A stretch of 49,981 nucleotides of DNA, from assembly GCA_018971025.1 (NCBI GenBank), contig JAGWVE010000010.1, positions 1-49,981 of the forward strand, given 5' to 3'. The notes below the pieces were generated by a model that was given only the letters and a program-made list of their open reading frames with translations, was not told the origin of the DNA and made no database searches. Source of the stretch: Bacteroidota bacterium. GTDB taxonomy: Bacteria; Bacteroidota; Bacteroidia; Chitinophagales; Chitinophagaceae. Positions 4,609-49,981 of the stretch are shown one piece after another (the first letter of the stretch is position 1; each line of letters opens with the position of its first letter). Position numbers and translations under genes: made by a program.

Positions 4609-4610
4609 AG

Positions 4611-5651: not shown

Positions 5652-5665
5652 GGTATGAATAGTTT

Positions 5666-6808: not shown

Positions 6809-6812
6809 GCTA

Positions 6813-7955: not shown

Positions 7956-7982
7956 ATTAAATCCCTAAAGGAAAAATTATTG

Positions 7983-9585: not shown

Positions 9586-9781
9586 AAATATTTGAGTCAT
9601 GCCAACACAGCTTATGAGCACCCAAAAAATGGGTTCAAATAAGAAGGCTAGCAATCGTTTATCTTTCTAAAAGCTAATATTAGCTTACCGAAAGTAATGG
9701 AAGGGGTGGGAGTTATAAATGCCTCGTTTAACTAATATAATGGACTATTTTACTATTTAATTGGGCACTTATGGGCTACAA
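9586..9781. other. Largest intergenic gap, probable transcription boundary
   Basis: About 196 bases separate the zinc alcohol dehydrogenase stop from the chosen maoC-like start; most other gaps here are 0-31 bases. It should hold the end of the rhamnose operon and the promoter of the CoA-transferase unit. I see a perfect 16-base palindrome (listed separately) but no convincing stem with a T-run as terminator, and no exact Bacteroidota TTTG / TAnnTTTG promoter. Confidence 0.5.
9671..9686. promoter_or_regulatory. Perfect 16-base palindrome, candidate operator
   Basis: The bases AAGCTAATATTAGCTT read the same on both strands. The site lies about 86 bases upstream of the chosen maoC-like start. 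On the minus strand it contains ATATTAGCT, a 9-base word also present just upstream of araB (minus-strand reading of 24837-24845). It could be an operator or overlap a -7 element. Palindromes of this length are rare by chance in 200 bases, but AT-rich composition raises the odds and no regulator can be assigned. Confidence 0.35.
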
Positions 9782-13470: not shown

Positions 13471-15594
13471 TTAACGAACAAATGCATTAGCGACGCCGCC
13501 ATCTACATTTAAAATATTGCCCGTAGACTTTTGTAGCAGCCCGCCAACAAAAGCGTAGCAAGCATTTGCAATGTCTTCGGGTAAAATGGCTTCATTTAAT
13601 AACGTACGCTTTGCATAATAAGCGGGTAGTTCTTCTACAGTTATACCATATGCTTTTGCGCGACCTTCGGCCCAACCGCCTGCCCAAATATTAGAGTCTG
13701 CGATAACAGCATCTGGGTTTACGGTATTGACACGAATTTTATCGGCACCTACTTCGGCGGCCATCAGTCTTGTCAAATGCGCTTGCGCGGCTTTTGCAGA
13801 ACCATAGCCAGGATTGTTTGGACCTGCAACTACCGAATTTTTAGAAACGATATTTACAATATCACCGCCAAGTGCCTGACTACGCATTACTGCAATAGCA
13901 GCTTTAGAAACCAAGAATTGACCTTTTACTAAAATATTATAAAGTCTGTCCCACTCTTCGATGCTGTGCTCTGCGATTGATTTTGAAATACTAATGCCTG
14001 CGTTGTTTACTACGATGTCAACACCACCAAATGCAAGTGCAGCCTCTTGCATAGCCGTTGTGATCGAAGTTTCATCGGTTACGTTTAAGAGCGCCGCAGA
14101 CACGGCATCTTTACCAAATAATTGTTTAAATTCTTCGGTAGCGGTGTCTAAACGTTCTTGATTGATATCATTTAAAATAACGCATGCACCTTCTGCTGCG
14201 AATTTTTTTGCAATGGCTTTTCCAATACCGCCTGCACTACCGGTTACAAGTGCAACGCGGCCTGTTAATGATTTTGGTTTTGGCATTCTTTGCAGTTTCG
14301 CTTCTTCCAATAACCAATATTCAATATTAAAAGCTTCTTGTCTAGGTAGTGATGTGTATTCCGAAACGGCTTCTGCCCCGCGCATCACGTTAATGGCATT
14401 GATATAAAACTCAGCTGCTACGCGCGCGGTTTGTTTGTCTTTTGCAAAAGTAAACATACCTACCCCTGGATATAATAACACAACAGGATTGGCATCACGC
14501 ATAGCCGGACTATTTGCATGCTTACATGTATTGTAGTAGTTCGCATACATAGCTCTATAGTCTTCAAAAGCAGGTGTTAATTGTGCTTTTATAGCTGTTG
14601 CATCTGATAGGTCTTGTGCTGGTGTAAGTGGTAATACAAGCGGACTAATTTTAGTACGCAAAAAATGATCTGGACATGAAGTCCCCAGTGGTGCTAAACG
14701 GTCTAGATCATTGGAATTGATGAATTCAAGTACACGTTCATCATCTGTAAAATGTCCAATCATTTTTGTATGTGACGAGCAAAGACCTCTTAGTACGGGT
14801 GCTAATGCAGCAGCTTGACTCAAACGCTCGTTTGACGCTAGCGATGCTATTTTTGAACCTCCAAATACAGGTCCTTTTTTACCATAATGATCTTCTAAGT
14901 ACTGCGCACAAGTTTCAACAACATCAAGTGTATTTAAATAAGATTCATAGGCCGTATCACCCCATGTAAAGAGACCATGCGAACCTAACATAATGCCTTT
15001 GATACCAGGGTTTTCATCTAAGCACTGTTTTAGTTGTAGGCCTAAATCAAAACCTGGTTTTTGCCACGGCACCCAACCAATTTTCCCACCAAATAATGTT
15101 TGGGTAATTTGTTGGCCATCTTTTGCGGCAGCGATTGCAATAGCTGCATCGGGATGCAAATGATCAATATGATTAAAAGGTAAAAAACCATGTAAAGGTG
15201 TGTCGATAGAAGGTGCTTTAGATGCTAAATCATAAATACAATGATTAAAAAGTTCTACCATTTCATCTTCATGTGCTAACCCTCTGTATACATTTTTTAA
15301 ACTACGTAGTCGATCCACATAAAGCGCAGCCAAGCCGCTTTTGGTTAGGGTGCCAATGTCACCACCACTTCCTTTTACCCACATTACTTCTGTTGCTTCG
15401 CCGGTTAATGGATTTTTAGCCATGGCCTTACAAGAAGTATTGCCACCACCATAATTGGTTAAACGAAGATCTGCGCCTAATAAATTAGAACGGTAAATAA
15501 GCAGGGCCACTTCATCGCCTGCCATTGTTTTTGCTTTTTCATCATCCCACAAATAACTTACGTGTTTGTAGTTGTCTCTTTTTTCGATTGCCAT
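13471..15594 (-). CDS. Bifunctional rhamnulose-1-phosphate aldolase / short-chain (lactaldehyde) dehydrogenase
   Basis: This 707-residue fusion has two domains. Residues of about 25-430 are a class II (zinc) aldolase: the metal-binding cluster NHIDHLHPDA (H142, H145, H147) and GSHGLFTWG (H206) are present. Residues of about 443-707 are a short-chain dehydrogenase with TGSAGGIG at 451-458, NNAG at 530-533 and the catalytic YGSAK at 597-601. The expected reactions are cleavage of L-rhamnulose-1-phosphate to DHAP and L-lactaldehyde, then oxidation of lactaldehyde to lactate. It follows rhaT by 20 bases and precedes rhaI by 31. The fusion is typical of rhamnose loci outside the enteric bacteria. 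Both halves keep their catalytic residues. Confidence 0.92.
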   Translation of the reverse strand: MAIEKRDNYKHVSYLWDDEKAKTMAGDEVALLIYRSNLLGADLRLTNYGGGNTSCKAMAKNPLTGEATEVMWVKGSGGDIGTLTKSGLAALYVDRLRSLKNVYRGLAHEDEMVELFNHCIYDLASKAPSIDTPLHGFLPFNHIDHLHPDAAIAIAAAKDGQQITQTLFGGKIGWVPWQKPGFDLGLQLKQCLDENPGIKGIMLGSHGLFTWGDTAYESYLNTLDVVETCAQYLEDHYGKKGPVFGGSKIASLASNERLSQAAALAPVLRGLCSSHTKMIGHFTDDERVLEFINSNDLDRLAPLGTSCPDHFLRTKISPLVLPLTPAQDLSDATAIKAQLTPAFEDYRAMYANYYNTCKHANSPAMRDANPVVLLYPGVGMFTFAKDKQTARVAAEFYINAINVMRGAEAVSEYTSLPRQEAFNIEYWLLEEAKLQRMPKPKSLTGRVALVTGSAGGIGKAIAKKFAAEGACVILNDINQERLDTATEEFKQLFGKDAVSAALLNVTDETSITTAMQEAALAFGGVDIVVNNAGISISKSIAEHSIEEWDRLYNILVKGQFLVSKAAIAVMRSQALGGDIVNIVSKNSVVAGPNNPGYGSAKAAQAHLTRLMAAEVGADKIRVNTVNPDAVIADSNIWAGGWAEGRAKAYGITVEELPAYYAKRTLLNEAILPEDIANACYAFVGGLLQKSTGNILNVDGGVANAFVR

Positions 15595-29703: not shown

Positions 29704-32700
29704 TTATTTATGATGTGCTTGCATTATTTCTACAGCACCAATAATCCCAGAAGGTTCTAGCTTATTTTTTGAAAAATCAAAAGGGTAGGTCGTGTATGTA
29801 AACCGCTCGCTAGTTGGTTTTGAGGCATCTCCCAACAAACGGTTATGCCAGGTATTGGTAACAACAATTTCAATGCTATTATTTCCCTTGCGTACCGCTT
29901 TAGAAATATCCAAAACATAGGGAGGCGTCCAAATAGTTCCGCAATCTATCCCGTTTACATACACCGTTGCTATATCATGAATTTCTGCAATTTCGATACG
30001 CGTATCCACAACATCATGAACCGTAAAAGTATTTTGATAGCGCATGCTTCCCGAATAATACTTGATTGCTGGATTTACATTTTTACTGATATCAGAAAGT
30101 ACTGTTGTTTCGAGTGGTAAAACCGGTCCACCCATACTGGAATCAAAATATATTTTCCATTTTTTATCAAACGTAATAGGCGCCGTATTGGATACTAACA
30201 AAGGCGCTTTTTGAACGATGCTTTTTTCTGGTACTTCTGTAAAAACAATAAACCTAGATTCGTTGGGGGCTAAATCTAATGCTAATACATTTTGTGTATC
30301 ATTGGTTTTGGAGTAGACAGGTATTTGACTTTGTACAGTAACCGGATCTAGAATAACAGGCACACCAGCTTGTCTAAATTGTAGTTGAGGCTGAATGTTT
30401 TTGCCGGATTGATTGGAAACAAAATAAATATGGGTGTTGCCATACATGCGGTGTGTAAATGAAATGTCAGACGCTTTAACCACTGTATCATTTACTAATG
30501 TTACATCAGGCGCAGTGCCAAACTCTGTAAAATTAGACCTCTGTATTGGCCCTTGTATCAATTTGCCTTTGCCATACACAGCCCCTAGGTTGTTGGCATG
30601 CACACCCATTTTCCAAGCAATGCCCGCTTGATTAAAAGCATTGGTAAAATTAGTAGCGTAGACTTTATCTACAATAACAGTAGCGCCTGCTGCTACCAAA
30701 CGCATAATATGTTCAACAACCGCTGGTCTAATATGTAGGGTAGGATTCATCAGCGTATCCGCAGCAATCACGAGTATTTTATATCTACCGCCACTTGGGG
30801 TTTGTAACGCTCCATTGGTATACCTAAGTTGTTCAAGTGCATCCGCATTAAATGAATCATATAAATAGCCCCTCAGTGGATTGATCCAATCTTTTGCTTG
30901 ATAGGTGTTTGCAGTAAAACTAACACCCACAGGTTCTTGTCGCATGGGCTGCCCCGTATTTTCTAATCGAAGTTGTTGTGCTTGTATTTTTTCGGGTTCA
31001 AAAAGTCCTGGCAAAGTTTGGGTGAGTGCAGATGGGAGTGAAGCCCTAGATGGTAATTCGTCGCCACTAAATACTGCAATATCAGCAATAGGTTTGCCAA
31101 GTTGTAATAAAGACTGGGTGCGCGCTAAATACTGAATCCATGCTTTGCTTTGATTAAACCATGTTTGATTGCGCTGAAAATAGACGCCAATAGGATCAAG
31201 CGTAACCCCTGGAACCCTATCTGTAAAAGGGTTGTGCATGAATACGTGTATCGCTAATTTATTAATACCCAACGCAAAATTTCGATCACCTAGCATTTTT
31301 AAATTTCCTGGATGCTCTTTCCAATCCATGCGAAGCGTGGTAAAGGCTTCTGCTTGAATTATATTTTTTCCATAAATATGTGCACCACTTATAGCGTCCA
31401 ACACATCATTGGGTTTATCGTGCGTAGGGCTATTGTTCCAAAATTCTCCCATGGGCATGTCCACGTTTTTATAATGTAACATGCCATCACTTAACATCGT
31501 AGGCGCCACACTTTCTGCCGAAAAAAGAATGCCTTTTTGTTGTACTAGATGTTTAAGTGTTCCAAAAAAATTATCGTTGATCAGTTCTGCAATGGTTGTT
31601 CTTATGTCGTATAAAACAGCTTCTGTTTTTTGAATAGACTCGATAGGTATACCAGCCATAACGGGTAAATAAGGCAACAAATCGTATCCCCTTTTTTGCT
31701 TAAACGCTGCTGGAAAAACATCCGACCAGTTTTGACTTCCACATTCCCAACTATCTACATGAAAAATTTTAACCACTTCCTTAGCAGTAGCAGCATCTAC
31801 ACCATGGTATAACTTGTCAAACCATTTATTAAATTGAAGGGTAACGGCTGCAGGATTAAACTTATCGCATTCCAATCCTTTTCCTCCTCCTGCTGTTTCA
31901 TTTTTGTGACCCGTACTGGTTGCACCGATTCTAACTAGCATCCAGTTACCAGGAGGCAGCGTAGCTTGCAACTGACCCTTAGCATCTATTTTTCCAGTAA
32001 GGTTGATGCCTTCATTTTGTTGCAAAACTTTTGTAGACACAGTTGTATCATTGTTGGCTCCAGCAATTCTCCAAACGCTTCCATTTTTAGCTTCAAAATT
32101 ATCTACAACAAGCTCGTCTGAAAGGGTAATATGTTTGATTTTTAAAGTAGGCTTCCATTTTGCTGCATCTAAACTTTCTGAGCCAGGTTGCAACCCTTTT
32201 TTGTCATATACAAACCTGATATAACGGGCCGTAGTAGTAGGTATCGAGAATGTATAGGGCGCATCGGTATCCTGCCAGCCATGTCTAGGCGGTATTAGTT
32301 TTTTAATGCTTGTAAAATTTACTCCATCGTTACTTGCTTGAATTTCTAATGCAAGTGAAGCGTAATTATTAGTACTGTAAATCGTAGCTGATGAAAAAGA
32401 ATAGGCGTTGTGATAATCATATTGTATCCAACAACTCGAATCAGATTTAAATGTGCTCGCACCCTTTGCACCCGGATACGGAAGCGAGGTTACAACACCC
32501 GCTACATTTGATGTTACCGTAATATTTTTTACAGCATCTGTATTTGCTAACACCGATTTTGTTGGAAAAGCAACCAGTGAAATGTCTTTATAATAGCCTT
32601 CGTTTATTGCTGGTTGTAAGAGTTGTATGGGTGCACTTACACCACCTTTTACATACTGTTTGGTAAAAACAATTTTTTGCATAGAAAGTGCAGGTGTAAT

Positions 32701-33111
32701 CCAAGGTCCGCCGGCAAGTGCAAAACCATCACTTACATGAAGGCCTAATTGAAGGTGCAATCTTTTAGCTTCTTTCATAGCAAACGCAACCAGTTCAAAC
32801 CAGGCAGGGCTTAGCTGCTGCACTTGTGGTGCATAATTTATTTTAACACTGCTTGTGTCTTTAATAAACATAAGATAAGCGCCACCCAATCCCACTTTTT
32901 GCATCGCTTCTAAATCGGCAGTGATGCCTTTTTTAGAAACCGACCCATGTAACCAATACCAAAACACCCAAGGCTTTGCAGCTTGCGGAGGTTGTAAAAA
33001 ATCCTTTTCGATGCGCGAAAAATAAGATCCATTTTGTGCAGCACAAAATGAATGACTCACAACAACAAGTAAGAGTCCAATAAAAATATGTTTGCTTCCG
33101 CGTTTGAACAT
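29704..33111 (-). CDS. GH106 alpha-L-rhamnosidase, secreted
   Basis: The 1135-residue protein has a signal peptide ending near FCA-A and the diagnostic GH106 N-terminal block KPWVFWYWLHGSVSKKGITA, followed by DLEAMQKVGLGGAYLMF. The TIM barrel (about 30-640) contains FHVDSWECGSQNWSD and the FSAESVAPTML strand with probable catalytic glutamates. Discoidin- and jelly-roll-like beta domains are inserted and follow; the C-terminal one has ATVYVNGIDCGTIWTPPY. Length is normal for the family. GH106 enzymes cleave alpha-1,2-linked and related L-rhamnose from rhamnogalacturonan and arabinogalactan. It begins directly at the stop of the GH2 gene with no gap and ends the right-hand operon. Confidence 0.92.
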   Translation of the reverse strand: MFKRGSKHIFIGLLLVVVSHSFCAAQNGSYFSRIEKDFLQPPQAAKPWVFWYWLHGSVSKKGITADLEAMQKVGLGGAYLMFIKDTSSVKINYAPQVQQLSPAWFELVAFAMKEAKRLHLQLGLHVSDGFALAGGPWITPALSMQKIVFTKQYVKGGVSAPIQLLQPAINEGYYKDISLVAFPTKSVLANTDAVKNITVTSNVAGVVTSLPYPGAKGASTFKSDSSCWIQYDYHNAYSFSSATIYSTNNYASLALEIQASNDGVNFTSIKKLIPPRHGWQDTDAPYTFSIPTTTARYIRFVYDKKGLQPGSESLDAAKWKPTLKIKHITLSDELVVDNFEAKNGSVWRIAGANNDTTVSTKVLQQNEGINLTGKIDAKGQLQATLPPGNWMLVRIGATSTGHKNETAGGGKGLECDKFNPAAVTLQFNKWFDKLYHGVDAATAKEVVKIFHVDSWECGSQNWSDVFPAAFKQKRGYDLLPYLPVMAGIPIESIQKTEAVLYDIRTTIAELINDNFFGTLKHLVQQKGILFSAESVAPTMLSDGMLHYKNVDMPMGEFWNNSPTHDKPNDVLDAISGAHIYGKNIIQAEAFTTLRMDWKEHPGNLKMLGDRNFALGINKLAIHVFMHNPFTDRVPGVTLDPIGVYFQRNQTWFNQSKAWIQYLARTQSLLQLGKPIADIAVFSGDELPSRASLPSALTQTLPGLFEPEKIQAQQLRLENTGQPMRQEPVGVSFTANTYQAKDWINPLRGYLYDSFNADALEQLRYTNGALQTPSGGRYKILVIAADTLMNPTLHIRPAVVEHIMRLVAAGATVIVDKVYATNFTNAFNQAGIAWKMGVHANNLGAVYGKGKLIQGPIQRSNFTEFGTAPDVTLVNDTVVKASDISFTHRMYGNTHIYFVSNQSGKNIQPQLQFRQAGVPVILDPVTVQSQIPVYSKTNDTQNVLALDLAPNESRFIVFTEVPEKSIVQKAPLLVSNTAPITFDKKWKIYFDSSMGGPVLPLETTVLSDISKNVNPAIKYYSGSMRYQNTFTVHDVVDTRIEIAEIHDIATVYVNGIDCGTIWTPPYVLDISKAVRKGNNSIEIVVTNTWHNRLLGDASKPTSERFTYTTYPFDFSKNKLEPSGIIGAVEIMQAHHK

Positions 33112-36420
<3,309 letters not shown>

Positions 36421-37695
36421 CTAAGATATACTGCCCTTATCGTCAACTGGTTTTTTTCTCCAGTAATTAGCGAGAATACTGCCACTAATATTCATCCATG
36501 GACTAAAAACGGCGGCCGCAAGGCCTACGGTACCAAGCTTTCCCATACTGCCAGCAATTCCACTTGCCATCCCACCGTTTTGTAAGCCCACTTCAAAAGC
36601 AATGGTTCTACTTGAGTTTTTATCCATACCAAAAAACCGGCTAAACCAATATCCAAAAAAATAACCGGCCGCATTGTGTATCACAGAAGCAATAAATAAT
36701 AGGAAGCCTACTTTCATTAAATTTTCTCTTCCTGCTGCTGTCGTTACTAAAATAAAATATACAATGCCTACCATAGAAATAAAAGGCATCACTTTATCGA
36801 TAGCAGTAAATCTTTTATACAGCTGGTGGTATACAAATCCTACAACAACAGCACCCGCCATAAATCCACTCAACACAAAACTTTGGCGGCCATTTATAGA
36901 AACAATTTGATCTTTATAAAAAAGTACAAACAATAACCAACATGCACTTAATGCAAGAAAAAGAATAGATTTTTTTTGTTGTGATCCTGTAGCATTTTTT
37001 AAATAATCGTGTACAAGCGCAGCACCAATAGGCACGATCACAATTTTTACAATTTCAACCATCATGTCAACAAAGTTGATTTGAATTAAACTACCCGCAA
37101 AGGTTTGCATTAACAGCGGCGTTAAAAAAGGCGCAGCTAATGTTGCCATGGCTGTAACAATTACACTTAACACCAAATTAGCCTTTGCTAAATACACCAT
37201 TACATTGCTTGCTAATCCACTACTACAACTTCCAATTAATATGACACCTGCAGCGATTTCTGGTTCAAAATGAAACAGTTTAATAAGTAGTAACCCCATC
37301 AGTGGCATTACCGAAAAATGACAAAATAACCCAATAAGCACACCTTTACCAGTGGTATGTAGTCCAGAAAAATCTTTCAAACTCATATGCGTACCCATTC
37401 CAAACATAATAAGCTGTATCACAACAAGGATGAGTGTTTTATCACGCAAATTTACCCCACCCCAAGTTTTAAAAGACTCCGGAAATAACATACCGGCTAC
37501 AACTGCTGCTGCAATCCATGCCGTATACTGATACCCTTTTAAACTTTCTACCGAACCTGTTGCAAGCGCACAAAAAATGGCAGTAACTAGTCCAGCATAA
37601 CAACTTAGTGTTGTTTGATGTAAGAGCATTGCAACAATGGTTCCAACTATTGAAACGATAAAAATATAAGGTGCGATTGATTGAATCTTTTTCAT
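36421..37695 (-). CDS. BASS (bile acid:sodium symporter) family transporter
   Basis: I start at the ATG of 37693-37695 (424 aa, MKKIQSIAPYIF), 4 bases after the preceding stop; an ATG at 37713 would overlap that gene by 14 bases. About ten to twelve helices are present. Family features are IMFGMGTHMSLKDF, ILIGSCSSGLASNVMVYLAKANLVLSV (the crossover helix region) and FEVGLQNGGMASGIA. BASS proteins carry organic anions with sodium, for example bile acids, ketopantoate and pyruvate. Because the next three genes upstream are an acid-racemase-like protein, an acid-sugar kinase and a RuBisCO-like protein, I infer import of a sugar acid. Confidence 0.85.
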   Translation of the reverse strand: MKKIQSIAPYIFIVSIVGTIVAMLLHQTTLSCYAGLVTAIFCALATGSVESLKGYQYTAWIAAAVVAGMLFPESFKTWGGVNLRDKTLILVVIQLIMFGMGTHMSLKDFSGLHTTGKGVLIGLFCHFSVMPLMGLLLIKLFHFEPEIAAGVILIGSCSSGLASNVMVYLAKANLVLSVIVTAMATLAAPFLTPLLMQTFAGSLIQINFVDMMVEIVKIVIVPIGAALVHDYLKNATGSQQKKSILFLALSACWLLFVLFYKDQIVSINGRQSFVLSGFMAGAVVVGFVYHQLYKRFTAIDKVMPFISMVGIVYFILVTTAAGRENLMKVGFLLFIASVIHNAAGYFFGYWFSRFFGMDKNSSRTIAFEVGLQNGGMASGIAGSMGKLGTVGLAAAVFSPWMNISGSILANYWRKKPVDDKGSIS

Positions 37696-37699
37696 GCTG

Positions 37700-38374
37700 T
37701 TATTTAGAAGCATCTAATAATTGAGTTGCCAAATATTCCATTGCGATAGGAGGGCTTGCTAAAATGGGAACTATTTTATCTGCCTGTTCAAGTGTGTCTA
37801 CAACACGCGCCATACTTGCTTGCGCAAGCACAATAACGTCTACTGCTTTGGAGAGGCTTATGAGTGCTGCCGCTACTTTTTGATCATGCGTTTTTTGATC
37901 GCCACTCATGAGCGCTTCAAAAGCACCTTCACACAACACTGTTTTAATTTGAATTTCTTTTCCAACTTTTTCCGCTCTGCGTTTTACCAAATCAGAAGTG
38001 GGTGCCAGTGTTGTTTGCAAGGTTGCCACAACACCAATTTTACTGCCCATGGCAACCGCTTTATCTGCCATGGGTTGGTCTACACGTAGTACGGGTATGT
38101 CTTGCAGCGATGCTGCAATTTCTACAGCAGGACCAATAGAGGAACAAGTAAATAAAATATAATCGGCACCAGCCTGTTTTGCAGAAGCAGCGTATGCAAC
38201 AACTCTAGAAGAGGTTTCTTTGGTAAGTGTACCTGCTGCGATTGTATTTTTAATTAAACTATCATCAACAATATTAAATGTTTTAATGCCTGGCAAATAG
38301 TTGGCACAAAGTTCTGCGAAGCCAGGAACAAGGGTGGCTGAAGTGTGAATTAATCCAAGTGTTTTTGTATGCAT
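37700..38374 (-). CDS. Asp/Glu-racemase-superfamily protein with one active-site cysteine
   Basis: The 224-residue protein has the two-lobed racemase fold. The first active-site segment is ILFTCSSIGP with C77. The second segment, where racemases carry a cysteine in a GCTH-like motif, reads VIVLAQASMARV (about 180-191) and has no Cys. Loss of one cysteine is known from arylmalonate decarboxylase, which keeps the other one. The protein may therefore be an isomerase or decarboxylase on a sugar acid rather than an amino acid racemase. It lies between the DUF1537 kinase (21 bases) and the BASS transporter (4 bases) and is very probably part of the same pathway. Confidence 0.8.
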   Translation of the reverse strand: MHTKTLGLIHTSATLVPGFAELCANYLPGIKTFNIVDDSLIKNTIAAGTLTKETSSRVVAYAASAKQAGADYILFTCSSIGPAVEIAASLQDIPVLRVDQPMADKAVAMGSKIGVVATLQTTLAPTSDLVKRRAEKVGKEIQIKTVLCEGAFEALMSGDQKTHDQKVAAALISLSKAVDVIVLAQASMARVVDTLEQADKIVPILASPPIAMEYLATQLLDASK

Positions 38375-38395
38375 ATTCGTATTTGAGTTATCTCA

Positions 38396-39673
38396 TTAAA
38401 AAAGTGAAAAATAATTTTCTGGTCCAACCTGTCCGCCTTTAAAATTTACTTCCACACCATTCATATTTTTATTGCTAGAGTGAATGATGCAAAGGGGTGC
38501 GCCTTTTATAATGGTTGTCACCATTTCTACGGCTTCAATATCTAAAGCCCTAGCGGCGTAACTACTCGTATCGCCACCTGCTATAATTATTCTTTGCAAA
38601 CCACAATGTGTAGTAGCATGTTTAGCAATTTGTCCAAGCATGGTACCCATCGTAGCAGCATCTATCTGCTCCGTTTTTTGTGGACCGGAGTGCACAATAA
38701 CTTTATTATTTGCTAACAATGCTTTTTCTACAGCATCAAAATAATAGTCAAGATCATGTGCGTTTGTATCCACAATGATTTCAGCAAAACCATGTGCTAC
38801 CGCATGTTTAATTTGATTGGCAGTAATGGGTGAGCAGCTCCCTGATACAACAAGAAGTTTATTAACCGGACTTAATGTTGGCCAAGCGGTTGAGCGTTCA
38901 AGTCCTTGGGTACTTGACCACTGCATACCAAGCGCTGTTTCTACACTTGAGCCGCCAACTACAAAAACAGGCGCCGCTGTTTGCTTTATATAGGACAACC
39001 ATTTTCCAATGGATTCTAAATGTTGATGTGTTAGCGTATCTAGCAAAACCACTTTTTCATTTTCCAACTGCTCCATCCATGTTTCGATAGGTAAGGCTAA
39101 TTGTAAAACGTCCAATAAACCTACCGGGCATGTGGTTTGTTGTGCTAATAATATTTTGAGGTCACTTTCTAATGAAGGCGTAACAGGATGATGCCTCATA
39201 GATGGATGACGATCTAGCCTAAATATTTTTCCGTTACTACCAATTCCAAAAGACGCAAATAAATTTCCAAAAGCACAATACCTGCCAAGGCCTGGAGCAC
39301 CACCAATCACTGGAACAATTGTAGGCTCAAAAACTTGAATGCCACAATCAATGGCTTTGCCAATACTGCCAATTTTTTCAGAAGAGTCAAACGTAGAACA
39401 AACTTTATAATGAACAAATAAAGGTTGATGTGATTTGATAGATTCAAAAGCCGCTATCAATTCGGGTTCCATAGCTGCAGTTGATAAAGACCTTGTTTTT
39501 CCGGCAACACCAAATACTTCTATGTCCGGATATTTTTCTAACTGCTTTGTAGTAGGTGGTTCTAAAAATAAAACGGCCTTAGCACCATACGATGCAATAG
39601 ACTCTAACGCATCGGTGCTACCCGTAAAATCATCTCCATAAAATGCCAACAATATTTGACTATGCATGCCCAT
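38396..39673 (-). CDS. Four-carbon acid sugar kinase family protein (DUF1537)
   Basis: The 425-residue protein has the two DUF1537 domains. The N-terminal substrate domain opens with FYGDDFTGSTDALES. The C-terminal nucleotide domain has VVSGSCSPITANQ, GGDTSSYAARAL and KGGQVGPENYF. DUF1537 enzymes phosphorylate 3-oxo-tetronates or 3-oxo-isoapionate with ATP. ATG codons at 39673 and 39667 are both possible; the first abuts the RuBisCO-like gene stop. Pairing with a RuBisCO-like protein points to the oxo-isoapionate-type branch more than to tetronates, which use a class II aldolase-type decarboxylase. Family is firm, substrate inferred. Confidence 0.88.
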   Translation of the reverse strand: MGMHSQILLAFYGDDFTGSTDALESIASYGAKAVLFLEPPTTKQLEKYPDIEVFGVAGKTRSLSTAAMEPELIAAFESIKSHQPLFVHYKVCSTFDSSEKIGSIGKAIDCGIQVFEPTIVPVIGGAPGLGRYCAFGNLFASFGIGSNGKIFRLDRHPSMRHHPVTPSLESDLKILLAQQTTCPVGLLDVLQLALPIETWMEQLENEKVVLLDTLTHQHLESIGKWLSYIKQTAAPVFVVGGSSVETALGMQWSSTQGLERSTAWPTLSPVNKLLVVSGSCSPITANQIKHAVAHGFAEIIVDTNAHDLDYYFDAVEKALLANNKVIVHSGPQKTEQIDAATMGTMLGQIAKHATTHCGLQRIIIAGGDTSSYAARALDIEAVEMVTTIIKGAPLCIIHSSNKNMNGVEVNFKGGQVGPENYFSLF

Positions 39674-40921
39674 TTATTTGGTATTAAATTTTTGAGCGGC
39701 ACTATTAAATTCGGGAAATTGTGCACGTGCTTCGTCAAATGAAAGCCCATCTACGGCTGCTTTCCAGGCCTGTTGTATCGCAACAACACCAGCAGCCGGT
39801 CCCATAGGATGGGCCATAATACCGCCACCAGCCATATATAGGAGATCTACTGTTTTGGTTCTTCGATAGGTTTCAAAAGCCTGACCACCCCACTGTCCCG
39901 ATGATACAACGGGCACTACATTTTGTTGCTGAAACAAAGGCTGTTGTAATGCCTGAATAGAAGCAACAACACTTTCATCTGTTTCCCAAAATTTATTTTG
40001 TAAACCATTTACATGAAGTTGGTCTACGCCTACTAAGCGCCAAATTTTTTGATAGGCTTTAAAATCAATACCTAATAATGGATGCCTTGTTAACATGCCC
40101 CAGCCATTGCGGTGTGCATGAATAGCAATCGTACCTATATCACATATTTTTTTGGTAGCGCTTAACCCTACACTATTGATACTAATCATTGCGGCGGTTC
40201 CGCCAGCAGTTACTATTTTTTCATAACGCTTTTGCATCTCATCTATTTCTGCAGAAATATTAAATGCATACATTGCTTTTTTACCAGTCTTGCTTGCATG
40301 GGCTTGTATCACTTCCATCACCGCATCTACGCGGTCATAAAAATTAGCATTCGCAGCAGACCCTAACAATTCATCGTCTTTAATAAAATCAATTCCGGCA
40401 GCTAAAAGTGTTTCAACAATAGTGGCTGTTTGCTGTGGCGTTAAACCAATAGAAGGTTTAATGATGGTTCCAATAAATGGCCTATTTGTTTCTACACCCA
40501 TTAATTTCCGACAACCTGCTACACCAAATTTTGGACCAGAAAAAGTTGCGCCAAAACTAGGTGGCAATTCAATGTCCATTAATTTAAGACCCGTAAACTG
40601 AGTGATCTCATACAAATTTCCTTGTAAGGTAGAAATCAAAACAGGCAGGTTGGTACCCATGTTTTCCATACTCCAACTTACCTGTACCTCCGCCCTATTA
40701 AATTGACCGGTACTGCTTGTAGCACCCGGTATAGATGGGGTTGTTACGGTTTCTAGATGCTTAACCGATTCTACCTTGGCTGCAAAACGCTCTTTGAGCT
40801 CGGCTGTTTCACCAGGCACTGCAACAAAAGTACCTGACGACTGTTCGCCTGCTAACACCATGGCCGCTTTCTCAGGATCGTAAGGTGTTTCAATATAGTA
40901 AGTGGCAGTAATTCTTTCCAT
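39674..40921 (-). CDS. RuBisCO-like protein (form IV), probable acid-sugar-phosphate lyase
   Basis: The 415-residue protein is a RuBisCO large-chain homologue. Active-site equivalents are kept: K155 in GTIIKPSIGL (spinach K175), K181, D183 and E184 in FIKDDE (the carbamylated lysine and magnesium ligands), H268, H270 and R271 in IHAHR, K310 in loop 6 (NGLQNKFWE, K334), S340/S341 in VVSSGQWGG, and GGGIMAHPMG at 365-374. There is no small subunit or phosphoribulokinase nearby, so carbon fixation is very unlikely. The adjacent DUF1537 kinase suggests a branched 3-oxo acid phosphate as substrate, by decarboxylation or by transcarboxylation and hydrolysis. Methionine salvage (enolase) is a weaker alternative, since no salvage genes are present. 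Confidence 0.88.
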   Translation of the reverse strand: MERITATYYIETPYDPEKAAMVLAGEQSSGTFVAVPGETAELKERFAAKVESVKHLETVTTPSIPGATSSTGQFNRAEVQVSWSMENMGTNLPVLISTLQGNLYEITQFTGLKLMDIELPPSFGATFSGPKFGVAGCRKLMGVETNRPFIGTIIKPSIGLTPQQTATIVETLLAAGIDFIKDDELLGSAANANFYDRVDAVMEVIQAHASKTGKKAMYAFNISAEIDEMQKRYEKIVTAGGTAAMISINSVGLSATKKICDIGTIAIHAHRNGWGMLTRHPLLGIDFKAYQKIWRLVGVDQLHVNGLQNKFWETDESVVASIQALQQPLFQQQNVVPVVSSGQWGGQAFETYRRTKTVDLLYMAGGGIMAHPMGPAAGVVAIQQAWKAAVDGLSFDEARAQFPEFNSAAQKFNTK

Positions 40922-42986: not shown

Positions 42987-45140
42987 TTATAATGCAGCAT
43001 ATCCAATGCTGTAGGATTTATTTTTTTCAATAACTATTTCATAATAATTATTTTCTTTGGGTGTAGCAAGCGCCCCCGTAGGTACTGTTTTACTTCTGAT
43101 GCGAAGTACGCCCTCACCCGTTGGAGATTGAATTTGAATACTTGTGGTAGAAACTTTTAAAGCAATAACACCATTAGGCGTTGGCACTTTTCCTTCCATC
43201 CACTGAAGCCCACCAAGTGCTGGTGTTACGGTATACTTTGCAAAGCCAGGTGCTGTTGGCTGAACACCTAAATAGTATTTTCCCAACAAATAAATTGGAC
43301 TAGCGCCCCATGCATGACATAGACTCTTACCAAATTTTCGGCCATACATGCTGTAATGTTCTTCACCCTTTTTTTCGGGATTGTATTCTTCCCAAAAACT
43401 TGTAGCACCTAAATCCAACATGCCGCCCCAATAAGCTTTCATTTGGTCTAGCACATAATTTTGTTCTCCCATAGCACAAAGTGACTCTAATTCATAAAAA
43501 CGCATATAAGGCGTTGTTATTTTTTGAATACTATCATTGAGCAGTACTGATTTTTTTACCGCCTGCTTTTGCGCTTCTGAAAAGTAATTAAAGAAAATAG
43601 AAAACATATTGGCATAGCGGGTAACATTTTGAGTTTGAACGCCATCTATTCTACTATGCACCAAGGCCTGCTTGTCTTTATTCCAGTATAATTCAAATAA
43701 TTTTGTGCGCATTTCTACAGCCAACTTTTTATACGAACCAACATGTGTTTCATCTTTTACAATGTCAGCACAGAGTGCCATAGTTTCTAAACTTCTAGCA
43801 AACAAGAGTTGTTCAAAACTTACTTCTCCTTTTTTACTTAAGCCAGCAGCCCAATCAATAAATATCCAATCGCCAGGCATCCATTCCAACAAACCATTTT
43901 TATTTCTTCTGGCCATCACATAGTCCATCAAAGACTTCATTTTATCGTAGTTCTGCTCAATAAATTTTTTATCGCCAGTAAATAAATAGTAATCATAAAT
44001 ACTTAGGAACCAATAAAAGGTATAATCCATGATGGTATTGATATGACCTGTTACCGGATCTTTTCCTCTTAGTGCATACATGGTTCTGGTAACGGTTGCG
44101 TTGTCATTCATCAAATAATAATTCATTAAATAACTTTGGTACGCGTCTCCACTCCAAACCCATCGGTCTCTTTTTATGCCATCTATAAAAAACTCACGTG
44201 TACTTAAATGCAGCGTATATTTTGCAACATCATAAATTTTATTGATAGCTGCGTCATTACATGTAAATGAACCCTTGTCTTCTATATCTGCGTATTCATA
44301 TAGTGCTGATGCTTTGCTATAGGAAACATTTCCTTCAGTTACAATTTGTACATATCTAAAAGCTTTAGACAATACCATGGTAGAATCTTTTTTTGTGGTA
44401 TTGCTAATGTCTAACACATCGATGGTTACGGCTTCATTTTTATCCAATGCCTCTTCTTTACTTTCACCATAATAAATAGTAACCCGTCCTTTTCCTTGCA
44501 GTCCGTGCAGTTTAATAAATCCAAAGGTTTCTTTTCCAAAATCATAGAGCCTAGATCCACTATTCGTAGTTACTTGAGTGGCTTCGAGGGGTTTTGTTGG
44601 CAATTTAAATGCCGAAGGAAGCGCTGTAGGGCTATTAAAATTCCAAGAACCCGCAGACAACCACTTGGTAGCAGAAACATCAGAGGTTTTACCAGTTTCG
44701 TCAATCCATTCTTTGTCTTCAAAAGTGGTTAACCAACTGGCATCAGAAACAATTGTTTTTCCTTTTACAAAAACAGTTGGCACCGATGCCTGATTGAATA
44801 CTTTGATATTAATTTTATGCTTACCCGCAGGAACCAACAGTGTTTTAGGCGTACCATCTATTGGCTTACCATCTAGTTTTACATTGTACTGGCCTTCTAC
44901 ATAAATATGTATGGTTTCAGGTGCAGATAAAGTATATACTTTATGGAAATCCATCAAATTATAATGACTGTCTACTTTCCAAAACACAGGAAAGAAAACA
45001 CCTCTGTCGGTTCTTCTATTTTGCATTTGGTTGGAAAGCCAAATTTCATAATCGCCCGGATACCAAATCCAGGTTTGCGCTGAGGCGGTATAACCCAATA
45101 GAAACGCTAGTACAACTAGTAAAGAACCTTTCTTTTTCAT
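42987..45140 (-). CDS. GH78 alpha-L-rhamnosidase, secreted
   Basis: I start at the ATG of 45138-45140 (717 aa); the codon opening the longer frame is TTG. A signal peptide (MKKKGSLLVVLAFLLG, cleavage near ASA-Q) precedes beta-sandwich domains of about 25-280, the (alpha/alpha)6 barrel and a C-terminal beta domain. The GH78 acid region IKRDRWVWSGD is at 322-332 with D325 as the likely general acid; the later glutamate lies in TSFWEEYNP. The enzyme is a little shorter than many GH78 proteins. It removes terminal alpha-L-rhamnose from pectic chains. It follows the SSS symporter with only 2 bases between. Confidence 0.9.
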   Translation of the reverse strand: MKKKGSLLVVLAFLLGYTASAQTWIWYPGDYEIWLSNQMQNRRTDRGVFFPVFWKVDSHYNLMDFHKVYTLSAPETIHIYVEGQYNVKLDGKPIDGTPKTLLVPAGKHKINIKVFNQASVPTVFVKGKTIVSDASWLTTFEDKEWIDETGKTSDVSATKWLSAGSWNFNSPTALPSAFKLPTKPLEATQVTTNSGSRLYDFGKETFGFIKLHGLQGKGRVTIYYGESKEEALDKNEAVTIDVLDISNTTKKDSTMVLSKAFRYVQIVTEGNVSYSKASALYEYADIEDKGSFTCNDAAINKIYDVAKYTLHLSTREFFIDGIKRDRWVWSGDAYQSYLMNYYLMNDNATVTRTMYALRGKDPVTGHINTIMDYTFYWFLSIYDYYLFTGDKKFIEQNYDKMKSLMDYVMARRNKNGLLEWMPGDWIFIDWAAGLSKKGEVSFEQLLFARSLETMALCADIVKDETHVGSYKKLAVEMRTKLFELYWNKDKQALVHSRIDGVQTQNVTRYANMFSIFFNYFSEAQKQAVKKSVLLNDSIQKITTPYMRFYELESLCAMGEQNYVLDQMKAYWGGMLDLGATSFWEEYNPEKKGEEHYSMYGRKFGKSLCHAWGASPIYLLGKYYLGVQPTAPGFAKYTVTPALGGLQWMEGKVPTPNGVIALKVSTTSIQIQSPTGEGVLRIRSKTVPTGALATPKENNYYEIVIEKNKSYSIGYAAL

Positions 45141-45142
45141 AA

Positions 45143-46723
45143 TCAATGACCGTTAAAAATGAAGTATAAACAAATAATGACCAAGCCTAATAAGCCAAAC
45201 AAAAGTTTTACTTTTTTACTTGTTACCGGAATAGGACTTGTTTGCAAAGTAGCGGTTGGTGAATTTTTATCCAATAATGAAATCACAATAGCTGCTATAA
45301 ATAAAATTGCAAAAATGTAAAAAGATAAAAGCATAAAATGCGGCCAAGCTGGATAAGCATTCGCCGGAAATATCCATAAATACAATACGCCAATACCTAA
45401 ACTAAAAGCAGATCCAAAACTAAGAACAATATTTACAGCTCGTTTAGTAGTGCGAGACCAAAACACACTCAATAAAAACACAACGGCTAAGGATGGCGCT
45501 AAAAATCCAAGTACAGCCTGAAAAATATTAAATAAGTTTTGTCCTTTGATGTTGTCAATTGCAATGGCCATAAATACAGCAAACACACATCCAACAGCAA
45601 TCACCCATCTACCTACTTTGATTTGTTCTTTTGTAGTTGCCTGAGGACGGTAGTTTTTTACATACACATCGGTTGTAAAAACGGCGCTCAATGCATTCAG
45701 TGAAGAACCAATTGTACCAACTAGTACTGCAATTAAAACACAAATCACCAAGCCATTCATACCAGCAGGAAAGAGGTTGGTAACCATGGTCATATAAGCC
45801 AGATCCGAATTGCTTCCTAACTCTGGATACAAAACAAAGCAAATAATACCCGGTAAAATAAACATGGGTAAGGCCAACACTTTTAGCCATCCAATAAAAT
45901 TAACACCTAATTGCCCCTGCTCTAAATTTTTGGCACCCAGTACACTTTGTACCATGGCCTGATCGGTACAAAAAAAGGCAACAGCTGCAACCGGATATCC
46001 GAGTAACATAGCTGGCCAAGGATAATTTTTATCAGAAGCGGGTTTAATTAAATTCCAATAATCTGCAGGCACTTTATGAAAAAGTGCAGAGAGGCCTCCA
46101 ATTTTTTGAACCCCTAAATATGACAATGATAGAGAAACGATAATTAAAAGAATCATTTGAAAAACATTCACTTTAGCAATCGCTTTTAGTCCACCGGCAA
46201 AAGTAAATATGCCAGAAAACGCAACAAGCACTATAACGGATTGCCACATAGGAATGCCTAATATCTGCCTCACTAGAACCCCGCCACTAAAGAGTCCCAA
46301 ACTAAGCCAACTCACTAAAATTTTTATAAGCGCATACCAAGCCAATATTTTTTGTGTACTATCACCATAACGCTGTCCCATGTAGGCTGGCATAGTAGCA
46401 ACTTTAGCTGCAATATATTTAGGTGCAAAAACCATGGCGAGCAGGAGTAAAAAAACAAATGCATACCATTCAAAATTACCGGCCACCACACCTGTTGCAT
46501 AACCAATACTTGCAAATGCCAATAAAGAAGAAGGGCCCACATTGGTGCCCCACATATTAAATCCAATATTGTACCAGTTAAGTGAATTGTTGGCTAAAAA
46601 AAGGGTTTCGTCTTTTTTATTTTGCTTAAAGCTTACTACATATCCAATGGTCAGTAGTACGATTAAATAAATAGCAATAATAATAAAATCAAGCTGCGTG
46701 AGCTTATCGTAAATTGTATTCAT
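45143..46723 (-). CDS. SSS-family sodium:solute symporter
   Basis: The 526-residue protein has about 13-14 helices and SSS signatures (GTNVGPSSLLAFASIGYATG in the first helix region, FAGGLKAIAKVNVFQM, and the FCTDQAMVQSVLGAKNLEQ loop). The gene starts 20 bases inside the end of the oxidoreductase gene, an overlap that suggests translational coupling. It differs clearly from the arabinose symporter at 18545-20245. Its setting between a Gfo/Idh/MocA oxidoreductase and a rhamnosidase suggests uptake of a mono- or disaccharide released by the secreted enzymes here. Substrate unknown. Confidence 0.85.
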   Translation of the reverse strand: MNTIYDKLTQLDFIIIAIYLIVLLTIGYVVSFKQNKKDETLFLANNSLNWYNIGFNMWGTNVGPSSLLAFASIGYATGVVAGNFEWYAFVFLLLLAMVFAPKYIAAKVATMPAYMGQRYGDSTQKILAWYALIKILVSWLSLGLFSGGVLVRQILGIPMWQSVIVLVAFSGIFTFAGGLKAIAKVNVFQMILLIIVSLSLSYLGVQKIGGLSALFHKVPADYWNLIKPASDKNYPWPAMLLGYPVAAVAFFCTDQAMVQSVLGAKNLEQGQLGVNFIGWLKVLALPMFILPGIICFVLYPELGSNSDLAYMTMVTNLFPAGMNGLVICVLIAVLVGTIGSSLNALSAVFTTDVYVKNYRPQATTKEQIKVGRWVIAVGCVFAVFMAIAIDNIKGQNLFNIFQAVLGFLAPSLAVVFLLSVFWSRTTKRAVNIVLSFGSAFSLGIGVLYLWIFPANAYPAWPHFMLLSFYIFAILFIAAIVISLLDKNSPTATLQTSPIPVTSKKVKLLFGLLGLVIICLYFIFNGH

Positions 46724-47775: not shown

Positions 47776-49981
47776 TTAATTTTTTTGGCTGCTTGCCGGT
47801 GAAAGAAAAACCCAAACCTCTCCAGGCTTCGTTCCTGCAATACCTTCTTGGTATTTTGACATGAGCTGATTCCATGTAACAACACGCGGATTGTTCTCTG
47901 TGGTTTTCGGATTTAATGCATCTAGCGACTCGCCTTTTGGAATACTAATAACCAGTACCAGCTGTCTTCCATTTTTATATATAAGTAGTTGTTGGAAATT
48001 AGCATTGCAAAAACCGGCAGACACTTCTTTCCATTGTGAAAATTGTGTTGCGTGGTAATGTAAATATTCTTCTTGCATTTTGGGATCCGCAACCAAGTTG
48101 GTTGTTAGTACAATATGATCCCATGCTTTAGCAGTTGTCGTATCTGTGCAATGTTTTTTCTTACTGTACGCATAAAACATATCATGGTACACTTTTACTT
48201 CGGCGCTTGCAAAAGCTTTTTGAATTTTACCTTGTAAAACGGTCAAATCAGCAATAGCTGCATAGATAACCACTCTGTTTTTCCAAATATATAGGGTATT
48301 GGTGTCTACCAAATTTTTACTAAGTACCTGTTTAAGTAAAGCAATGTCTACAGCACTATCCGGCTTTGCTACAATTTCGATAACACCAAAGTAGGCTTCA
48401 TTGATAGGTTGTTTGCGCTGTACAGATGTTCTTTGTGTTAGTAGATATTGATATTGCTTTTGTACACCAGCTTGTTGTTTTCTTTCTAATTCATTGATAT
48501 TTCCATTGCCTTCCCACACATTTCCGGGTCCATTTGCGTTTTGTAAATACTTGGTACTTGGCGTCCAATTGTTTTGAAATCGAATATTAGAAGAGCCTTC
48601 ATCTGCGTACAAATAAAACCAGTGACTAGGCAAATGTGCATAGGGTGCTTTGTAAATACTATCAATTACATTATGCGCTACGGTTGAATTGTTTTGATAA
48701 CCCAATGTATAAATTCCTGCACAATCATAATTGTGTTTTCCGTAATGATTGATGGCATTGTAACCAATATAATTATTTCCAGCAATGGTGGGTATAGGAT
48801 TCCAGCCCCAGCCAATACTAATACCCGTGTAAGAAGTATTGTTTATTTCGTTGTATGCTATGGTAGAATTTCTAAGCGTACCAAAACCAATACCAACCGT
48901 ACCCCAATCTTCATTTGCTAGATTGGTAAGTAAGTTGTTTTTGATATTGATGTGTTCACAAATATCAGCTTCTGAATTTGGTGTGTAGGGTATATGAATT
49001 TCTCTTCCTTCTGTGCCATAGTTGCCTGCTAATATTCCATTGCCGCCAATATCTTTTAGCAAAGAGCTTTGTACTGTTAAATTTTTTACGCCAATAACAG
49101 CGTCGATTCCGGTGGAAGCTGTGTGTTCAATACTACATCCACTCAACGCAACTGCGTTTGTATAACGAAGTGAAATAGCAGCGCTAGGTCTACCCACCCA
49201 TGCTTGATTGTCCAAATTTGGATTTAGTGGCGTGCCCGCTGGTTTTAATTTGTAGGCCTCTGTCATGTATAAGCCTAACTGATGAGGAACGTTTCCTTTT
49301 TGAGAAGGTCGTAACCAACTACTATGCTTAAAGGAAATATTTTCAAATGAAATATTTGAAACAGGCGCATTTGCAGTGCCTTCAAATGAAACAAGTGTTT
49401 CTACATAAGGTGCTACAACATTTGCAGACAACATGTTTTCATTTGTCCGCGGATAATAATAAAGTAATTTATTTTTTGTGTCTAAGTACCACTCACCAGG
49501 TTCATCTAAAAACTGAATTGCATTGGATAAATAAAAAGGAGAATTGCCTGTTTCTTTACTGAGCCATGGTGCAGGCCATGGATGGTCGCTTTGTATGCCC
49601 GCTTCTGGTTGTTCAAAAAATAAGGTGGTGGTATTATTTTTTGTTTCCATTTTACGAATACGCAGTGTAGCAATTTCCCACCACTGCGCAATAAACATTT
49701 CAACACCTATGCTGTTTTCTAGTCCCTCAAATGCAGGTGAAGTAATGGTGCAAGTTTGATCTTTTTTATTCCAATCTACAATGCGGTCCATGGTTTCACC
49801 TGCTGTAGATTTTGCACGCACTGCTTTTATATCATTGACCCATAGCTGTCTAAAATTAAATGCTGTCCCGTGCACATCTGGCACCGCAGCCACCCAAACA
49901 TTTTTATATGCTTTACTTGATAAACCTAGAACTGGTTTTGTAACAGGTTTCCAATGATCAATAACCACACCGCCACTTATA
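47776..49981 (-). CDS. Secreted parallel beta-helix glycosidase (GH141-like) fused to RhaM-like L-rhamnose mutarotase domain (N-terminus cut by window edge)
   Basis: The frame is open to the right edge (734 residues visible); the true start and signal peptide lie outside. Residues up to about 505 of the frame from 49968 form a right-handed beta-helix with FRQLWVND, FLDEPGEWYLDTK and repeated N-x-I/V rungs, as in GH141 proteins (alpha-L-fucosidase and xylanase activities are known). Residues of about 525-601 look like a ferredoxin-like domain. Residues of about 614-726 (DNA 47791-48129) match L-rhamnose mutarotase RhaM: Y635 and H639 in EEYLHYH fit the catalytic Tyr-x3-His, with W699 and the C-terminal EVWVFL strand. 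It heads the visible part of the right-hand operon. The fusion is unusual. Confidence 0.8.
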   Translation of the reverse strand, partial: ISGGVVIDHWKPVTKPVLGLSSKAYKNVWVAAVPDVHGTAFNFRQLWVNDIKAVRAKSTAGETMDRIVDWNKKDQTCTITSPAFEGLENSIGVEMFIAQWWEIATLRIRKMETKNNTTTLFFEQPEAGIQSDHPWPAPWLSKETGNSPFYLSNAIQFLDEPGEWYLDTKNKLLYYYPRTNENMLSANVVAPYVETLVSFEGTANAPVSNISFENISFKHSSWLRPSQKGNVPHQLGLYMTEAYKLKPAGTPLNPNLDNQAWVGRPSAAISLRYTNAVALSGCSIEHTASTGIDAVIGVKNLTVQSSLLKDIGGNGILAGNYGTEGREIHIPYTPNSEADICEHINIKNNLLTNLANEDWGTVGIGFGTLRNSTIAYNEINNTSYTGISIGWGWNPIPTIAGNNYIGYNAINHYGKHNYDCAGIYTLGYQNNSTVAHNVIDSIYKAPYAHLPSHWFYLYADEGSSNIRFQNNWTPSTKYLQNANGPGNVWEGNGNINELERKQQAGVQKQYQYLLTQRTSVQRKQPINEAYFGVIEIVAKPDSAVDIALLKQVLSKNLVDTNTLYIWKNRVVIYAAIADLTVLQGKIQKAFASAEVKVYHDMFYAYSKKKHCTDTTTAKAWDHIVLTTNLVADPKMQEEYLHYHATQFSQWKEVSAGFCNANFQQLLIYKNGRQLVLVISIPKGESLDALNPKTTENNPRVVTWNQLMSKYQEGIAGTKPGEVWVFLSPASSQKN

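Follow-up and report, generated by a model that had tools for sequence, protein, structure and literature searches.

A four-gene cassette with a RuBisCO-like protein in a rhamnogalacturonan II operon of a Bacteroidota bacterium is a candidate pathway for aceric acid catabolism

A stretch of 49,981 nucleotides from contig JAGWVE010000010.1 of a Bacteroidota bacterium of the family Chitinophagaceae (assembly GCA_018971025.1; the whole stretch is referred to here as the window) contains a cassette of four adjacent minus-strand genes that encode a RuBisCO-like protein (RLP), a DUF1537 acid sugar kinase, an Asp/Glu-racemase-fold protein (RACE) and a BASS-family transporter. We propose, with a probability of roughly 65%, that this cassette serves the catabolism of aceric acid, described as 3-C-carboxy-5-deoxy-L-xylose, freed from side chain B of rhamnogalacturonan II (RG-II) by the product of the adjoining GH127 gene. 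The proposal builds on what the sequences indicate: the identities of the genes, their conservation, their link to a GH127 enzyme, the separation of the RLP from OiaX, and the lack of an oxidoisomerase-like gene in all but one of the genomes searched. A sequence-only reading of the same DNA had placed the four genes at 36421-40921, and both the location and the identities are borne out, with four intact open reading frames whose Pfam matches all exceed the cut-offs. It had also described gaps of 0-21 bases, which is correct for RLP-DUF1537 (0) and DUF1537-RACE (21), but RACE and the BASS gene overlap by 14 bp. The genes on which the argument turns are as follows.

39674..40921 (-), RuBisCO-like protein (RLP), 415 aa; PF00016 RuBisCO_large and PF02788
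38396..39673 (-), DUF1537 acid sugar kinase, 425 aa; SBD_N PF07005 and NBD_C PF17042
37700..38374 (-), RACE, Asp/Glu-racemase-fold protein, 224 aa; Asp_Glu_race PF01177
36421..37713 (-), BASS-family (PanS-like) transporter, 430 aa; SBF PF01758
40948..42972 (-), GH127 protein, closest to 5MQO in a PDB search
13471..15594 (-), bifunctional rhamnulose-1-phosphate aldolase/SDR; NF006191, 1388 bits against a cut-off of 1240

In the proposed route the BASS protein would import aceric acid, RACE would convert the aldose to the 2-ketose HOCH2-CO-C(OH)(COOH)-CH(OH)-CH3, the DUF1537 kinase would phosphorylate the C1 CH2OH beside the ketone, and the RLP would decarboxylate the phosphorylated beta-keto acid to CO2 and 5-deoxy-L-xylulose-1-phosphate. 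The rhamnulose-1-phosphate aldolase already used for rhamnose would then cleave this product to dihydroxyacetone phosphate (DHAP) and acetaldehyde, and the route would call for no other gene of its own. Such a cleavage by RhaD could occur because, by our own derivation, C3 and C4 are as in rhamnulose-1-phosphate if protonation proceeds the xylulose way. The chemistry has a close model in 3-oxo-isoapionate, HOCH2-CO-C(OH)(COOH)-CH2OH, on which, and on the phosphate of which, OiaK and OiaX act; the 2-ketose of aceric acid is this same compound with CH(OH)CH3 replacing CH2OH, that is, with one extra methyl group. We infer aceric acid as the substrate, each of the reactions, their stereochemistry and the order of steps from gene neighbourhood and chemistry. 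The bolder claim, that this is a complete and transferable aceric acid pathway with a new clade of RLP decarboxylases and the first aldose-ketose isomerase of the racemase fold, arisen through the loss of one cysteine, is tentative and falls somewhat short of even odds.

Conservation of the four genes together, on which the sequence-only reading had staked its interpretation, was examined in 100 RLP loci (the best 80, of more that exist, together with 19 further loci and one plasmid locus; four pairs of loci among them share identical RLPs). The DUF1537, RACE and BASS genes all lie near the RLP gene in 90 of the 100, and the four-gene association is far from chance. Another four loci (L050, L031, L106 and L120; loci are numbered with L and genomes with G) have an incomplete cassette through contig ends, and at L126 none of the three partners lies within the 930 bases downstream of the RLP gene. 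The cassette is found in Bacteroidota, Balneolota, Verrucomicrobiota and Planctomycetota. Seven loci (L130, L131, L132, L133, L136, L137 and L147) have GH78, GH127 and GH2 in the window order, with one extra gene within the run in L130, and lack the cassette between GH127 and GH2. Its absence as a block from otherwise similar loci suggests that the cassette is gained or lost as a unit, and the sequence comparisons mark the four genes as a portable cassette that is either present or absent as a whole.

The order and company of the cassette genes vary in places. In Sphingobacterium (L122, L123 and L129) the order is changed to RACE-BASS-RLP-DUF1537. In L122 the cassette is preceded by an FGGY kinase, an ABC sugar transporter and, with the latter, a DUF2291 protein; relatives of these are present in L123 and L129. 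Relatives of enolase-superfamily acid sugar dehydratases occur at L054 14847-15920, L113 8886-9998 and similar places (two were scanned), and the L113 protein has relatives near the cassette in six loci. A search near the cassette for a dedicated isomerase or aldolase, in which a part of the neighbouring genes was annotated, gave a xylose-isomerase-like TIM barrel in 7 of 82 clustered loci, and with this distribution it is not a general part of the cassette. One contig, L094, belongs to a metagenome-assembled genome (MAG) labelled Williamsia and carries a Bacteroidota-type RG-II locus whose RLP groups with that of L029 from the window's family (support 100); this contig is probably mis-binned.

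The substrate is suggested above all by the GH127 gene, which lies 26 bp upstream of the RLP gene. Its best PDB match is 5mqo_A (E 4.6e-227, 758.7 bits over residues 12-672), with a lead of 392 bits over the next match at 366.7, and we take 5MQO to be BT1003. In RG-II breakdown BT1003 serves as the aceric acid hydrolase (PMC5698469), and PMC10850190 likewise names it an aceric acid hydrolase. The window GH127 is thus proposed, by sequence, to be an aceric acid hydrolase for RG-II side chain B.

Co-occurrence of the two genes was followed in 396 genomes of the window's order, counting an RLP at E<=1e-60 (a weak RLP in G053, at 2.3e-33, was not counted) and a GH127 at E<=1e-200, a line drawn once a gap from 7.8e-203 to 6.1e-154 had been noticed. 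An RLP is encoded in 15 genomes and a GH127 in 31, and all 15 RLP genomes are among the 31: GH127 is present in 15/15 genomes with an RLP and 16/381 without, and an RLP is present in 0/365 genomes lacking GH127 (Fisher p 5.6e-19, a value uncorrected for kinship). With the GH127 line relaxed to E<=1e-120, an RLP is found in 15/37 genomes with GH127 and 0/359 without. At this same line, 25 of 395 genomes sampled across the phylum have a GH127, among them all eight with an RLP. RACE follows the RLP, being present in 15/15 RLP genomes and 0/48 genomes without; the 16 genomes of the order that have GH127 and no RLP all lack RACE, and 15 of them keep one or more other RG-II hydrolases of the window type near GH127 (the exception is G244). 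The stricter line is not universal, as the best GH127 matches in Verrucomicrobiota and Planctomycetota are about 7e-143 to 3e-196.

A genome-wide search of 50 records (49 of the genomes with the best 80 RLPs and one plasmid, chosen mainly because GH127 is not beside the RLP) found GH127 encoded in 48, with best E values below 1e-142. Among the other 31 of the best 80, 28 have a GH127 match of at least 200 bits inside the locus (the remainder being L052, L106 and L125). When the window's non-cassette genes are ranked as companions in the 80 loci of 19 kb or longer, GH127 comes first, with 42 loci against 22 for the next, and it is the direct same-strand upstream neighbour of the RLP in 28. The association of the cassette with GH127 is seen again in each of the four phyla, Bacteroidota, Balneolota, Verrucomicrobiota and Planctomycetota. 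The RLP and GH127 also occur together on a Rufibacter plasmid. A Croceibacterium plasmid (L046), considered as an independent case of this pairing, was rejected, as the neighbour there is a distant family member (24% identity over 364 aa). That plasmid has a 56% match to RACE followed by an MFS transporter, and its RLP and kinase genes lie elsewhere, by the distant GH127-like protein; the set may represent a related pathway. RACE was looked for on four proteobacterial plasmids: it is absent from two, C. pinatubonensis has a 33% match, and the Croceibacterium plasmid is the fourth; a close GH127 was not found on any of seven proteobacterial plasmids, Croceibacterium included, in a search of the plasmids rather than the chromosomes.

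The RLP itself has the large-chain domains PF00016 and PF02788 and the fold of a form IV RuBisCO-like protein, its model (pLDDT 85.0) matching 3nwr best, with a TM score of 0.90. Its nearest NCBIfam model is OiaX (NF042437), at 512.7 bits and thus under the equivalog cut-off of 700; the type III RuBisCO model gives 233.9 bits. Grouping with the methionine-salvage enolases, which the sequence-only reading had named as the outcome that would count against it, is not seen, and identity with MtnW was rejected on two models, whose cut-offs of 513.6 and 409 compare with scores of 117.6 and 164.7 bits, respectively. A motif alignment to type III RuBisCO shows that the RLP keeps K155, K181/D183/E184, H270/R271, H303, K310, E26 and N102, which in spinach numbering we take to be K175, K201/D203/E204, H294/R295, H327, K334, E60 and N123, respectively. 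These catalytic residues are invariant or nearly so in 24 aligned members. From these features the RLP is proposed to decarboxylate a branched beta-keto acid sugar in its phosphorylated form.

The sequence-only reading had pointed to the D-apionate route, and the general part of its suggestion, an RLP and an acid sugar kinase related in type to OiaX and OiaK within an RG-II context, agrees with the nearest models of the two proteins (512.7 and 354.9 bits). In its specific form the cassette would serve D-apiose, with apionate reaching 3-oxo-isoapionate by another route and the kinase and RLP then acting as OiaK and OiaX; RG-II contains apiose, the two proteins match OiaK and OiaX best in NCBIfam, and the kinase score is not far below those of kinases beside proteobacterial RLPs (472.2 next to an annotated oiaX, and 427.6), so that OiaK activity is compatible. 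Against this, three further module RLPs score 513.8, 507.0 and 496.7 bits for OiaX, all below 700 like that of the window, where three annotated OiaX proteins reach 760.2, 777.3 and 789.9. In the tree 99 module RLPs separate from the three OiaX proteins with full support, and E26, N102 and H303, the RuBisCO-type residues of the module RLPs, differ in the three OiaX proteins; the module branch, with L127 inside it, has an SH-aLRT value of 86 by a quick method with a very long outgroup.

The content of the genomes argues in the same direction. At L151 the apionate operon comprises the annotated oiaX together with a four-carbon acid sugar kinase and a third gene, for a 'phosphogluconate dehydrogenase C-terminal' protein, which is probably the apionate oxidoisomerase; this name rests on the place of the gene after oiaX and the kinase, since NCBIfam has no model that names the protein. 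We searched for this oxidoisomerase-like gene and for RhaD in 51 RLP genomes (20 from the order and phylum samples and 31 of the best 80), and 50 of them, including that of the window, have no oxidoisomerase-like match at E<=1e-5, in agreement with the absence of an apionate oxidoisomerase noted from the sequence. The exception is a Planctomycetota MAG (L117) with a split match of 45-46%. The cassette also comes without a lactonase or dehydrogenase, and the adjoining GH127 is aceric acid hydrolase-like and not an apiose enzyme. The plain apionate pathway was rejected as the principal interpretation on the OiaX score, the split in the tree and the missing oxidoisomerase-like gene, and we consider a D-apiose role for the cassette unlikely. 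The fallback offered in the sequence-only reading, a different branched acid sugar, is the better fit given this GH127 neighbour.

The kinase has both PF07005 and PF17042, as members of the DUF1537 acid sugar kinase family do, and scores 354.9 bits for OiaK (NF042436, cut-off 700) against 153.7 for 3-oxo-tetronate kinase; kinases from four other modules (L018, L027, L030 and L038) likewise score higher for OiaK. The missed cut-off says little, because the L151 kinase beside oiaX, at 472.2 bits, also falls under 700. The window kinase is thus OiaK-like by sequence and is proposed to phosphorylate the ketose of aceric acid.

A different RG-II sugar, DHA, offers another use for the cassette, in which an aldolase would cleave DHA to give pyruvate along with a four-carbon aldehyde acid; RACE would isomerise the latter to 3-oxo-tetronate, the DUF1537 kinase would phosphorylate it and decarboxylation by the RLP would yield DHAP. 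3-Oxo-tetronate is a known DUF1537 substrate, represented by an NCBIfam model, and proteins like BT_1020, presumably the DHA hydrolase, follow the RLP in L069 and L071 and are present in 8 of the 100 loci. The kinase scores set out above run the other way, however, and the cassette has no aldolase. GH127, found in 42 of the 80 long loci, is far more usual than the BT_1020-like proteins; seven of the eight loci with the latter also hold GH127, and the eighth has a partial match at the locus edge. We regard this role as rather improbable. In both L069 and L071 the BT_1020-like protein is accompanied by a GH43-like protein after the RLP, at the usual place of DUF1537, and in L069 RACE and BASS then follow.

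In the aceric acid route RACE would carry out the first intracellular reaction. Its model (pLDDT 95.8) has the Asp/Glu racemase fold (3ojc, TM score 0.78), in keeping with its PF01177 match. Asp/Glu racemases use two catalytic cysteines as two bases, and only one of these is found in RACE: C77 is present in all 79 aligned members and aligns, in a weak match, with the first-site cysteine of the hydantoin racemase 2eq5, while positions 185-188, where the second cysteine motif was placed by eye, read QASM in 79/79, and a cysteine elsewhere within 180-192 occurs in one member of 79. H10, D37, R97, D99, H163 and D164 are also invariant. A true Asp/Glu racemase was rejected on the missing second cysteine and because the carboxyl-bearing carbon of aceric acid has no hydrogen. 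Since proton transfer on one face presumably needs one base where a racemase needs two, it is plausible that RACE is an aldose-ketose isomerase of aceric acid.

The transporter belongs to the BASS family (PF01758) and matches PanS at 206.7 bits, under the cut-off of 400; it is proposed from its family and place to take up aceric acid. The rhamnulose-1-phosphate aldolase fusion is encoded in 47 of the 51 RLP genomes searched, and because this aldolase is common its presence is consistent with the route and goes no further; the window RhaD fusion is proposed, by sequence, to supply the shared last step.

The setting of the cassette is an operon-like minus-strand run of 11 genes from GH141 (49968) to GH106 (29704), in the order GH141, Gfo/Idh oxidoreductase, SSF symporter, GH78, GH127, RLP, DUF1537, RACE, BASS, GH2 and GH106. 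Gaps across the run are -110 to 26 bp, the negative values hinging on the called starts, and BASS and GH2 are 24 bp apart. The GH127/GH78 and GH2/GH106 flanks described from the sequence are seen on the two sides of the cassette.

47776..49968 (-), GH141 with C-terminal RhaM domain; 5mqp_A, 'Glycoside hydrolase BT_1002', E 3.9e-141, and Pfam; the frame is still open at the window edge (to 49980)
42987..45146 (-), GH78 alpha-L-rhamnosidase; 3cih_A, E 1.3e-285
33112..36396 (-), GH2 LacZ-type beta-galactosidase; Pfam, with PDB matches to generic beta-galactosidases
29704..33111 (-), GH106 of the RG-II rhamnosidase type; 5mqm_A, E 2.1e-302

The best solved relatives of these glycoside hydrolases identify the setting, at the level of sequence, as RG-II; 5MQM we take to be BT0986. 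BT1002 is active on chain A of RG-II (PMC10154630), and the GH2 enzyme BT_0993 on the galactose that is joined to aceric acid through a beta-1,2 linkage (PMC11739564). The window GH2 is a possible counterpart of BT_0993; orthology was not shown by the PDB search, which gave generic beta-galactosidases. The contig belongs to its genome by composition: eight contig stretches were taken, two of which were all N and were dropped, and the GC content of 0.386 compares with 0.365-0.398 in the six others, with tetranucleotide correlations of 0.95-0.97.

Another uncommon gene cluster lies at 3541-9654 (-) in the window, with two class III CoA-transferases, a MaoC dehydratase, a solute-binding-protein-like protein, a RhaT-type permease and a Gfo/Idh protein. 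The solute-binding-protein-like frame (7983-9143, minus strand) is between CoA-transferase and MaoC genes, and no ABC permease domain was found in the neighbouring frames scanned. The protein at 803-3520 (-) scores 1399 bits on the NCBIfam model for alpha-D-galacturonidase, over its cut-off of 1300, and is blank in Pfam. Conceivably the CoA-transferase/MaoC cluster is the route for aceric acid, and the RLP cassette serves for another branched acid. CoA-transferase is found in 25/31 genomes with GH127 and 0/32 others, more than the RLP (15/31), and the cluster is beside GH127 in L132, L138 and L139. On the other side, it pairs with a RhaT-type permease in the window and related genes pair with a FucP-type permease in L073, both of which carry neutral deoxy sugars and not acids, and it offers no evident step for removing the 3-C-carboxyl group. 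Both systems occur together in 14 of the 15 RLP genomes, which suggests different substrates. Given its distribution, the cluster looks like a pathway for another RG-II sugar, one that is CoA-dependent, and we judge it the least probable of the alternatives as the aceric acid route.

Several observations weigh against the assignment of the cassette to aceric acid. The identity of 5MQO with BT1003, which we assume, found no confirmation in a full-text search of the open-licence literature for the code. Two RLP genomes have no GH127 match, the MAG of L057 and the genome of L126, where the RLP has no cassette beside it. GH127 is out of reach in 38 of the 80 long loci, and among the 15 RLP genomes of the order it is elsewhere in the genome in G083 and G215 and on another contig in G350. 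Conversely, 16 of the 31 GH127 genomes of the order have no cassette, from which it follows that the release of aceric acid need not go together with its use. The cassette is also not always whole: L069 has no nearby DUF1537, L071 lacks DUF1537, RACE and BASS, L117 and L124 lack BASS, and in L127 (Aestuariibaculum, RLP at 10001-11245) the RLP stands alone in its locus, without kinase, RACE or BASS. RACE is not cysteine-poor as such, another cysteine, C148, being kept in 72/79 members, and we know of no precedent for an isomerase role in the Asp/Glu racemase superfamily. Co-occurrence would fit any RG-II sugar, so that only neighbourhood and chemistry single out aceric acid, and the CoA-transferase cluster, which is also linked to RG-II loci, may itself be the route for aceric acid.

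We found no published route for aceric acid after its release in the open-licence literature. If the assignment of the cassette to aceric acid is correct, a gap in RG-II turnover would be closed, an RLP clade spread over the four phyla named above would gain a concrete substrate, and the Asp/Glu racemase fold would gain a new reaction. The cassette would probably allow bacteria of soil and water to feed on this rare branched sugar of plant pectin. It is carried by cultured strains, among them Niabella aurantiaca DSM 17617, Terrimonas ferruginea DSM 30193, Flavobacterium pectinovorum and Pedobacter sp. Leaf170.

Among known systems, the closest in chemistry is the OiaK/OiaX branch of D-apionate catabolism, reportedly described by Carter et al. 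in 2018, which shares with the cassette a DUF1537 kinase, an RLP acting as a beta-keto acid decarboxylase and the substrate core HOCH2-CO-C(OH)(R)-COOH. It differs in that R would here be CH(OH)CH3 and not CH2OH, in the addition of RACE and BASS, in the lack of the oxidoisomerase-like gene, and in an RLP that scores under the OiaX cut-off and stands apart from OiaX in the tree. The 3-oxo-tetronate pathway (OtnK/OtnC) likewise has a DUF1537 kinase followed by decarboxylation to a ketose phosphate; here the RLP replaces the aldolase-type OtnC and the kinase is closer to OiaK. RACE has the fold of the Asp/Glu racemase superfamily, including arylmalonate decarboxylase, but carries the invariant Q185-A-S-M where the second cysteine motif is placed by eye; arylmalonate decarboxylase, unlike RACE, keeps the other cysteine. 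The RG-II apparatus of Bacteroides thetaiotaomicron (BT_0993, BT1001, BT1002 and BT1003) has its GH127, GH78, GH141 and GH106 counterparts here in one operon, which differs in carrying its own proposed aceric acid pathway. Decarboxylation of 3-oxo-isoapionate-4-phosphate by an RLP is cited in PMC6302742, where cleavage of 5-deoxyribulose-1-phosphate in 5'-deoxyadenosine salvage is also proposed. That salvage resembles the proposed route in splitting a 5-deoxy-pentulose-1-phosphate to DHAP and acetaldehyde, whereas the source here would be a plant wall sugar and the entry would be through decarboxylation by an RLP.

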